Origin: Macrophomina tecta
Lineage: Eukaryota; Ascomycota; Dothideomycetes; Botryosphaeriales; Botryosphaeriaceae
Direction of reading: 5' to 3'
DNA: 64,000 bases
Assembly (NCBI GenBank): GCA_024180945.1
Contig: JAKSGN010000003.1
Coordinates: forward strand, 3,038,001 to 3,102,000
Under the pieces are notes generated by a model. The model saw only the letters and a list, made by a program, of their open reading frames with translations, did not search any database and had not been told where the DNA came from. This document shows positions 43,686 to 46,426 of this stretch, piece after piece. Within the stretch, counting starts at the first letter, position 1; each line of letters begins with the position of its first letter. Made by a program: the position numbers and the translations under genes.

Positions 43686-43693
43686 AGACCGCC
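43686..43693. repeat. Target-site duplication, left copy (AGACCGCC)
   Basis: The 8 bp AGACCGCC directly precede the left inverted repeat and recur exactly after the right one. Eight-bp duplications are diagnostic of hAT insertion. Confidence 0.93.
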
Positions 43694-43737
43694 CAGACAT
43701 CCCAGTAATAAATATATATTTATTATTAAGGGCATAT

Positions 43738-43785
43738 TTATTGTTAAGCTTTTCCATAAGGATAATAATATAGACGCTGCCAATA
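43738..43785 (+). repeat. hAT subterminal repeat, left copy
   Basis: Shares TTG-TAAGCTT, GATAATAATAT and CTGCCAAT-AATA in the same order and spacing with 46321-46369. Such subterminal copies are often transposase-binding sites in hAT elements. Confidence 0.6.
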
Positions 43786-44022
43786 AATATATATTGTTAA
43801 CTATTAATAATATAGGCCCACTATTTTCCAGCGCCAATTCCCCCAGAGTGTTTCAGATTAAATTGCAGTCTTGTACGCATATTACTGCTTATCAGGCCTC
43901 TAGATAGGAGGTGAACTCCAATGTTTGTAACTCCTAGCAACCGAAACTGCTGCCTCGCCATACCCGTCACGTTGCAAGTACGCAGTTCGTAATACATCAG
44001 CGACATATCTCTACACACGACA

Positions 44023-46316
44023 ATGGACGTCAACATATCCTCACTGCCCCAATCCAATGCCCCGTCAAGTTCTTCCTCCGTGGTACCCTCTGACAGTGCC
44101 TCACAAGTTGCCAGCACACTGTCAGAACCCGAGGCATCGTCAGCTCAGCATACGGTCAAGAGACGGAAACTGAGAGCCACATTAACATGGGATCACTTTC
44201 GAGAAGCTCAAGGCGACGAGCCACGTACTATGAGCGGGAAATTACTTCACTACTGCACGCGTTGTCGCAATCCATCCTGGTCAACCCACATATCTGGCAA
44301 CGCCCGCTATCATCTCGAGAAGGCTCATCACATACTTGTTCGAGAGGATTCAAAATCTCAAAACAGGCGCCAACTAGCCATCGAAAATGCCTTCGCAAGA
44401 ACAACCGGCAAGCGGCTGCAGCAAGTCAGGGAGAATGAGATGAACACTCTACGGAGTGTAATCAATGTCGATGCCTTTCGAGAGGCACAGATGTTGCTAT
44501 CCGCACATAAACATTTACCGCTCAACTTCGTAACCTGGCCGGAATACCAGGCACTTCTGGCCGCGATAAACCCTGCCGTTGAAGAGTTCCTAACTGATTC
44601 CGGTAGCACAGTTGCGGCGGACTTGGATAGGGCCTACGATGCGCATCAACAATCCGTAAAGGAATGGCTAGAACGTGCCCGGAGCCTCGTACACATTGCT
44701 ATGGACGTATGGCCTTCTCCTCAGCGGAAGGCCTATATCGCTGTTCACGCCCAATGGGTTGACGAGGCCTACAAACCTCGGAAAGCATTGCTAGGGCTAC
44801 CAAACCTCCGCCGCTCTCACGCCGGCACGGCTATGGCACCTCACTTGATGACGATTATCCGACAGTACCACTTAGCGCCCCGAATCGGCTACTTCACTGG
44901 GGACAATGACGCAAAGAATGACACCTGTCTCCGCCAACTTGCTGTTGAGCTGTCGCAAGAGTACGGCCTTACACTTGACCCAGTGTCCTCTCGAACGCGG
45001 TGTGCCGGCCACATCATTAACTTGTCCCTTCAAGCCTTTCTCTTTGCAACTAGTGAGGACGCTCTGCAGGCCGCAATTGCGCAGGCGCAACACGAGGTAA
45101 ATGATGTAACAGTTGCGGACGCGTTACACGACCAAATTCAGTCGAACACTTGTCACAAGAGTCACGACAGGCGCAAGAAACGCCATGACACTGCCGGCTG
45201 GCGGAGCATCGGCCCAATGGGTAAACCCCACAACATTGCGGTGTTCATCCGTAATTCCACAGTGCGCAACGATGCATGGGATGACATTGCAGAAAAGGCG
45301 CTTGGAATTGACAATATCACCCGTTGGAACTCATGGTTCAAGTTGCTTGATGCGGCTATCAGCCAAGAGGGTCCATTGTCAATATTCCTCAACCAATACC
45401 ACAACGAGCTGGAAGACGACATCCTCACACATGATGATTGGCAAGTACTCAAAATGACTCACGAGTTCTTGCAGCCGTTTTACCAAGCGACCTTGGAGCA
45501 GCAAATGGAGTGGGCATCAATAGATCAGGTGCTAGAGAATATGGATATTCTTTTCATGCAGTTTGAGAATGCCAAGGTAAGCCATGGACGGCTCGATCGA
45601 TTACCAGACCTGGACTGATGTTAAAGCAGGGCAAATACGCCAGCAACGCGCGTATGGTTCATTCCATTCACATGGGTTGGTGGGTTCTCTCGAAGTATTA
45701 TGAAGAGAGTGACAGAAACCCAATATATGCCACGGCATTATTGCTCCATCCAGAAAAGCGCCGGAGGTACCTTGACCGCCACTGGGCAGAGGAATGGAGG
45801 CAGACCGCTATTGCTGGTGCACGGCAGCATTGGGCGAAGTACAAGGACCGGCCACTCCCGTCGGAGTCCGCGGCTCGGCTGAACGACGAACGACGGGAAG
45901 TAACACCGTACGAGCGTATCAAGCAGTCAATGAGTGTCTTGGATGAACCCGGAGATGAGGATGAATTCGAAAAATTCGTCAATTCTCCGCCAAGACCTAT
46001 GACGACCAAAACACCGCTTGAATGGTGGTGTCGAGAAGAACAGAGGATTGAGTATCCACGTTTACACCAATTGGCCATTGACATACTAAGTGTGCCGGCG
46101 ATGTCCGACGATCCGGAACGGGTATTCTCTTGCGCAAGGCGGACAATTTCTTGGGACAGGGCACGGCTCTCGCCTGATACTATCGAGAAGCTTCAATGCC
46201 TGAGCAACTGGGTGAAGAATGACTTGGTCCGCAAAGTCTACGTGGCAGTAGATGGTAAGGTCATGGATATTGCTGGCGGCAACGACGACATGCATGGCGC
46301 TTCAGTTTTATATTAA
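44023..46316 (+). CDS. hAT transposase with BED zinc finger
   Basis: Exons 44023-45576 and 45630-46316 give 746 residues; the 53-nt intron contains stops, so splicing is required. A BED-type finger lies at about 57-105 (TWDHF, CTRC, HLEKAH). The RNase-H-like core has the first Asp in HIAMDVWPSP, the second in YFTGDNDAKND, then the conserved RCAGHIINLSLQAFLF and NITRWNSW. The C-terminal dimerisation domain holds PLEWWCREE and VPAMSDDPERVFSCARRTIS with the third acidic residue region, then LSPDTIEKLQCLSNWVKNDL. It should act in the nucleus, cutting at the element ends and inserting with 8-bp duplication. All recognisable catalytic and dimerisation blocks are intact. The start ATG gives a Ser-rich N-terminal tail of about 45 residues. 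Confidence 0.95.
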
Positions 46317-46320
46317 TAAT

Positions 46321-46369
46321 TATTGATAAGCTTAGCAATCGATAATAATATTAGGATCTGCCAATGAAT
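46321..46369 (+). repeat. hAT subterminal repeat, right copy
   Basis: Direct-orientation partner of 43738-43785, roughly three quarters identical by eye. Confidence 0.6.
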
Positions 46370-46418
46370 ACATAAGAATATGTCAATATTATGTATTTAT
46401 TTATTATTGGGATGTCTG

Positions 46419-46426
46419 AGACCGCC
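46419..46426. repeat. Target-site duplication, right copy (AGACCGCC)
   Basis: Exact copy of the 8 bp at 43686-43693, directly after the right terminal inverted repeat. Confidence 0.93.

Follow-up and report, generated by a model that had tools for sequence, protein, structure and literature searches.

The locus considered here lies within a stretch of 64,000 nucleotides that was analysed as a whole (the window), and consists of a transposable element of the hAT superfamily, its transposase gene and a duplicated target site on either side. The features are the following:

43686..43693, no strand: left 8-bp target site duplication, AGACCGCC
43694..46418, plus strand: the whole hAT element (2725 bp), of which the genome has about 105 near-identical copies, this one included
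43694..43718, plus strand: 5' terminal inverted repeat, matching its partner over 21 bp with one mismatch or over 25 bp with two
44023..45576, plus strand: transposase exon 1, 518 codons
44704-44706, plus strand: D228, exon 1, first D of the D-D-E core
44902-44904, plus strand: D294, exon 1, second D of the D-D-E core
45577..45629, plus strand: predicted intron, 53 bp, GT..AG, deduced from the sequence
45630..46316, plus strand: transposase exon 2 including the stop, with E681 and the hAT dimerisation domain PF05699
46116-46118, plus strand: E681, exon 2, E of the D-D-E core
46394..46418, minus strand: 3' terminal inverted repeat, partner of the 5' repeat
46419..46426, no strand: right 8-bp target site duplication, AGACCGCC, same letters as the left one

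The exact borders, the 8-bp duplication and the 21-bp inverted repeats with one mismatch had been proposed in a sequence-only reading of the locus, and all of them were confirmed. The intact transposase of 746 residues claimed there, without stop or frameshift, is likewise obtained once the predicted intron is spliced; the unspliced reading meets a stop and a shifted frame. As for the three domains assigned to this protein, the RNase H-like D-D-E core, with a helical insertion as in Hermes, and the dimerisation domain (PF05699 at residues 645-713, scoring 55.1 bits where the cut-off is 21.4) are present, and the BED finger comes down to a C-x2-C...H...H pattern at residues 78-103 (44254-44331), with no Pfam BED match at E <= 1. 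The 8-bp duplication, the short terminal inverted repeats, the dimerisation domain and the D-D-E core are together the traits of a hAT element. The duplications being identical on both sides, the window copy has not exchanged flanks.

Copies, age and genome defence

The assembly comprises 54.1 Mb in 37 contigs, designated here as C1, C3 and so on. The element had been taken for a single copy, which is refuted by a genome-wide search giving 106 5' ends and 107 3' ends of the family. Listed were 100 ends of each type, all of them exact, with up to six 5' ends outside this set; their pairing gave 96 plain copies, each end of which was checked. Four further copies are not plain: C14, C31:1681103 and C36 contain an insertion, and C35 is truncated where its contig ends. 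Another four (C16, C24, C25 and C28) are known from the 3' end alone. Copies in either orientation are dispersed over 20 or more contigs. The contigs that start at base 5 of the element measure 12.9 kb (C16), 198 kb (C24) and 18.7 kb (C25).

Full-length sequences were read for 56 of the 96 plain copies, and 53 of them are distinct. With three outliers set aside, two copies differ on average by 3.5 substitutions per 2725 bp (about 0.13%). The full 746-residue protein is coded by 42 of the 56 copies and is interrupted in 11; the remaining three were left untranslated for lack of the exact anchor. The youth, intactness and recent arrival ascribed to the element thus find support in copies about 99.9% identical, mostly coding for the full protein, and in a phylogeny pointing to horizontal transfer (see below). 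Moreover, near-identical copies with distinct duplications suggest that the family has been mobile. Many diverged copies, which would have spoken against youth, were not encountered as far as this was tested: C28 holds one clearly older relative, 96.6-97.5% identical, and a search with part of it as the query did not find a second relic in the 40 scored of 119 candidates; the 39 scored matches other than C28 itself were all at 97%, the level that the young copies would show. An old consensus-like survivor is therefore unsupported. Local hopping as a general rule is also unsupported, the median differences being 4 within contigs and 4 between them.

Some peculiarities of single copies may be recorded. 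One 1-bp deletion (alignment column 738) breaks the frame in 6 of the 56 copies, at different sites, and 14 of the 96 plain copies measure 2724 bp; damaged copies thus seem to have spread in trans, unless the deletion is a homopolymer error. The copy C10:20704-23428 bears 29 private substitutions, all of them in alignment columns 1016 to 2476 and none in its first 1 kb. When it is compared with the window copy in a rough alignment, 15 of 31 comparable differences carry the letter of the C28 relic, and this copy was perhaps converted by an older relative.

A lapse of genome defence had also been suggested, and it is supported by RIP indices that are negative for the element (TpA/ApT 0.71, second index 1.30). 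Among the copies there are 29 C>T or G>A variants, 9 at CpA and 10 at CpG; decay of the element by RIP is supported neither by the indices nor by these counts. Three cytosine methylase loci with DNA methylase domains were found in the genome (L175, L176 and L177), one of which has DUF7893 and a weak, below cut-off BAH match ahead of the methylase domain. In the locus on C30 (2495631-2496551), which sits between two flank-exchanged copies of the family, the domain is split by an intron or a stop. Methylase genes are present, yet the family carries no RIP mark, and with three such loci the loss of the methyltransferase is unsupported as the cause of missing RIP. For M. phaseolina MS6, the available text of PMC3477038 reports the absence of RIP and 136 hAT features, without a breakdown by family.

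Other repeats were met next to or inside these copies. A second hAT family, of 2735 bp, is represented by an insertion in a copy of the window family (L044:444-3178), with 20-bp perfect inverted repeats, the duplication GTCAACAT and a 757-residue open frame containing PF05699; it has 7 full-length copies at 99-100%, this one included, and diverged ones from 93% down to 69%. At C14:44042-49632, a copy of the window family contains an insert of about 2.86 kb with 21-bp perfect inverted repeats and the duplication AACACGAG, by eye a third hAT-like element. Another copy (C36:318980-323017) is split by an insert of 1.3 kb that has perfect inverted repeats of 32 bp and a frame resembling a transposase, and that by eye looks Tc1/mariner-like; this copy and C10:691368 share their 30-bp flanks, and the segment is probably duplicated. 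Finally, the DNA beside the C25 copy and beside C31:2121186 belongs to a repeat (C31:2123911-2125190) found in 15 places at 100% over 1280 bp, C25 itself included, so that more than one young family exists in this genome. The DNA beside C16 is also repeated, with four further matches at 91-100%, and that adjoining C24 is unique.

Relatives of the transposase and origin of the family

Members of the hAT superfamily include Hermes, Ac/Ds and the hAT elements of Fusarium, among which Tfo1, Folyt1 and Hornet are named families. The family of the window differs from these by its host, which we take to be a member of the Botryosphaeriaceae, in the Dothideomycetes, and by its about 105 near-identical copies, with more than one third of the 96 plain ones lacking matching duplications.

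A search for homologues of the transposase scored 7997 candidates and gave 86 matches. Full-length F. oxysporum proteins (P0001-P0004) are 86-89% identical to the window transposase, one from F. solani is 93% identical over 80% of it, and the named matches at identities of at least 50% are from Hypocreales. Of the 86 matches, 33 were placed in a tree with the window protein (LG+G4, no mixture model), the F. solani protein being compared over 605 columns. In this tree, the window transposase and F. solani P0012 are sisters (100/95), and the former falls within starred groups of 4 and 13 proteins, together with Fusarium and Purpureocillium. The deep joins involve long branches, of which the local nesting is independent. 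The gene tree therefore conflicts with the host tree, an element of a Dothideomycete being nested in Hypocreales (100/95 and 100/99).

A host gene from the window serves for comparison. The HRQ1 helicase matches that of M. phaseolina MS6 at 99% along its entire length (9 differences in 1173 residues), and the next named relative is Lasiodiplodia, at 85%; the host is accordingly placed in Macrophomina. No named hypocrealean occurs in the best 120 of 7811 relatives of this helicase, of which the last ten are at 72-74%; the contrast is drawn with these 120 listed relatives.

The simplest reading, and a likely one, is that the element passed horizontally from Hypocreales to Macrophomina, because the window transposase nests among hypocrealean proteins as sister to that of F. 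solani; the direction and date of the transfer are what we infer from these data. The rival view of the origin, and of the origin alone, is that there was no transfer at all: an old family, already present in the common ancestor of Dothideomycetes and Sordariomycetes, would have descended vertically and been reactivated in recent times. The C28 relic, at about 97%, implies that the family was present before the burst, and the sampling was limited to 7997 scored candidates and a tree of 33 of the 86 matches, both of which leave some room for vertical descent. Nevertheless, it is very improbable, given that Fusarium transposases reach 86-93% when the best 120 of 7811 HRQ1 relatives have already fallen to 72-74% without a named hypocrealean, and that the named transposase matches at identities of at least 50% are hypocrealean, with the window protein inside them. 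In the case of transfer, an autonomous cut-and-paste hAT transposon would have entered the Macrophomina lineage from a hypocrealean, the closest known relatives being those of Fusarium, and would then have reached about 105 copies without being marked by RIP.

Target site duplications and exchanged flanks

Both flanks were read for all 96 plain copies. The 8-bp duplications match in 60 of them and are unmatched in the other 36; among the copies with insertions, those of C14 and C36 match and that of C31:1681103 does not. The unique duplications show a preference for T at position 2 (51/106, p 6e-8) and, weakly, for A at position 7 (37/106, p 0.017), where G is also found in 37/106; the target consensus of Ac-type hAT elements is nTnnnnAn.

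Among the 36 unmatched copies, 25 left ends equal the right end of a different unmatched copy, against 0.02 expected by chance. As assembled, the resulting network consists of five two-way swaps, one three-way swap and five open chains, with six copies partnerless on both sides. It is incomplete, up to six 5' ends being outside the set. The closed swaps are these:

C1:169185 with C6:2823734: two-way swap between contigs
C3:3115434 (plus) with C3:3145054 (minus): two-way swap, same contig, opposite orientation, putative inversion of 30 kb
C5:2735715 (plus) with C5:2780610 (minus): two-way swap, same contig, opposite orientation, putative inversion of 45 kb
C6:591472 with C7:2122920: two-way swap between contigs
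C13:161106 with C31:1142699: two-way swap between contigs
Three copies, all on C30: three-way swap

The open chains include 2, 2, 3, 5 and 5 copies; the one through C7:110786 is ambiguous, as C16 and C20:285643 have the same right 8 bp. The 36 copies have 72 ends, of which 22 find no partner within this set. One of the copies without partners, C31:2268376, ends in another repeat, and its right 8 bp are common to the matched copy C31:2121186 and to C25. The window copy has two variants in common with C3:3115434 and C3:3145054, 34 and 63 kb off, each of which variants is also carried by a few copies in other parts of the genome; these two neighbours have traded flanks with each other and not with the window copy.

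Partners tend to lie on the same contig. Same-contig links account for 10 of the 25, where two null models predict 2.3 and 1.6, and none of 20,000 runs reached 10 in either; this is 4-6 times the expectation, a count which later rearrangements can blur. Furthermore, a random permutation of the 36 copies gives 0.5 two-cycles, with a probability of 0.0001 for at least five.

Probable ectopic recombination and its alternatives

The explanation that we consider probable is a burst of a horizontally gained hAT family followed by ectopic homologous recombination between its copies, by which flanks were swapped. The near-identical 2.7-kb copies, dispersed in the genome, would serve as substrates, and crossovers between them would have produced the inversions on contigs 3 (30 kb) and 5 (45 kb), the exchanges between contigs 1 and 6, 6 and 7, and 13 and 31, and the three-way exchange on contig 30; copies partnerless at both ends probably mark deletions. 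The copies of both same-contig pairs are in opposite orientation, as inversions require. That the flank exchanges are real, and not made by the assembly, seems to us rather likely; their occurrence in the living fungus, and their origin in homologous recombination instead of aberrant transposition, are what we infer from the pattern.

The sequences of the copies give additional, less specific information. Variants have been shuffled between copies, as shown by the failure of the four-gamete test at 27 of 210 site pairs. The signal is as strong among the matched copies alone (17/120), and is thus not specific to swaps; the diversity is too low to phase single pairs of swap partners for chimerism. 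Both sequences are available for eight partner pairs. Two, with 17 and 20 differences, contain the noisy copy C7:306538 and were dropped. The other six are clean and show a mean of 4.3 differing positions, the mean over all clean pairs being 3.8; in this small sample, the choice of partner is thus not explained by likeness. The reciprocal pair of C6 and C7 has a variant found in no other of the 56 copies, which fits conversion beside a crossover; a mix-up of similar copies would give the same.

The main rival is that the swapped duplications arose when the assembler switched tracks inside near-identical 2.7-kb repeats, in which case the burst and the youth of the family would be real and the rearrangements not. 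Contigs do break at these copies: C35 begins inside one, and the first letter of C16, C24 and C25 is precisely base 5 of the element. C29 and C37, with exactly 3,215,000 and 3,345,000 bases, suggest editing by hand or from a contact map. In C7:110786 and C7:306538, both unmatched, private differences are clustered and include indels, and C16, a copy at a contig end, has 9 mismatches and 6 gap openings; all three look like uncorrected read error. Private indels were counted in 3 of the 22 unmatched copies and in 1 of the 34 matched ones, private substitutions average 2.4 against 1.3, and polishing could equally have shuffled variants among copies. Even so, most copies of both kinds are clean, with no private indel and at most three private substitutions (18 of 22 unmatched, 32 of 34 matched), and likeness within the six clean testable partner pairs does not exceed that of pairs taken at random. 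If tracks were switched by chance among the 36, 0.5 two-way swaps and about 2 same-contig links would be expected, where 5 and 10 are seen; nor do misjoins alone predict that 22 of 72 ends lack a partner, which deletions do, unlisted copies and contig ends explaining part of them. On this balance, misassembly appears unlikely as the source of the pattern.

These explanations are not mutually exclusive, and some or all of the rearrangements could also have been made by the elements themselves, the ends of two copies transposing as one hybrid element. Alternative-end transposition is known of hAT elements such as Ac/Ds of maize, and the five open chains of 2-5 copies could stem from it in part. 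The same alternative is discussed for Galileo in the accessible text of PMC2775673, according to which insertion of a hybrid element predicts identical flanking copies if both derive from one site, and otherwise deletions and duplications. Here, both copies were read for four of the five reciprocal pairs, which differ by 1, 2, 4 and 7 positions, and the closed two-way swaps follow simply from single crossovers, which makes aberrant transposition a distinctly improbable source.

Exchanged duplications are, in the part of PMC2775673 available, one criterion by which ectopic recombination was recognised for Galileo at the inversions of Drosophila buzzatii. The pairs C3:3115434/3145054 and C5:2735715/2780610 resemble that case, with oppositely oriented copies and exchanged duplications. 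They differ from it in the superfamily concerned; also unlike Galileo, many exchanges fall in one genome, 7 in the closed cycles and roughly 12-23 in chains and single copies. Ectopic recombination between transposons has already been reported in other fungi, as far as that literature was covered. The M. phaseolina isolates 11-12 and Al-1 differ by large inversions and translocations (PMC6829926), which in the portion of that paper available are not tied to any element, its main text being without the word hAT. No report of a hAT burst or of exchanged duplications in Macrophomina was recognised among titles and abstract beginnings of open-licence PMC articles, a partial coverage. All the ingredients are thus of a known kind; subject to confirmation by reads, what stands out is how they are combined and how many exchanges a single genome contains.

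The probable transfer of an active transposon between classes of fungi is documented by this family. If the swaps are real, a single genome records a few dozen exchanges at base-pair resolution, all of them after a single burst, and pairing the duplications gives the ancestral adjacency. The dependence of ectopic crossover on distance and orientation would then become testable, as would the question of what rearranges chromosomes in a crop pathogen, given the inversions and translocations, so far unexplained, that distinguish its isolates. It is conceivable, though we hold it less likely than not, that this single, recently and horizontally acquired family is the main driver of reshuffling in this Macrophomina lineage, with 19-30 crossovers since the burst, some of them maybe ongoing. 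If exchange is ongoing, one culture would carry more than one chromosome arrangement, and the contigs beginning at the element might be such alternatives. In this way, the trading of flanks between hAT copies could explain the reshuffling of chromosomes in this charcoal-rot fungus.
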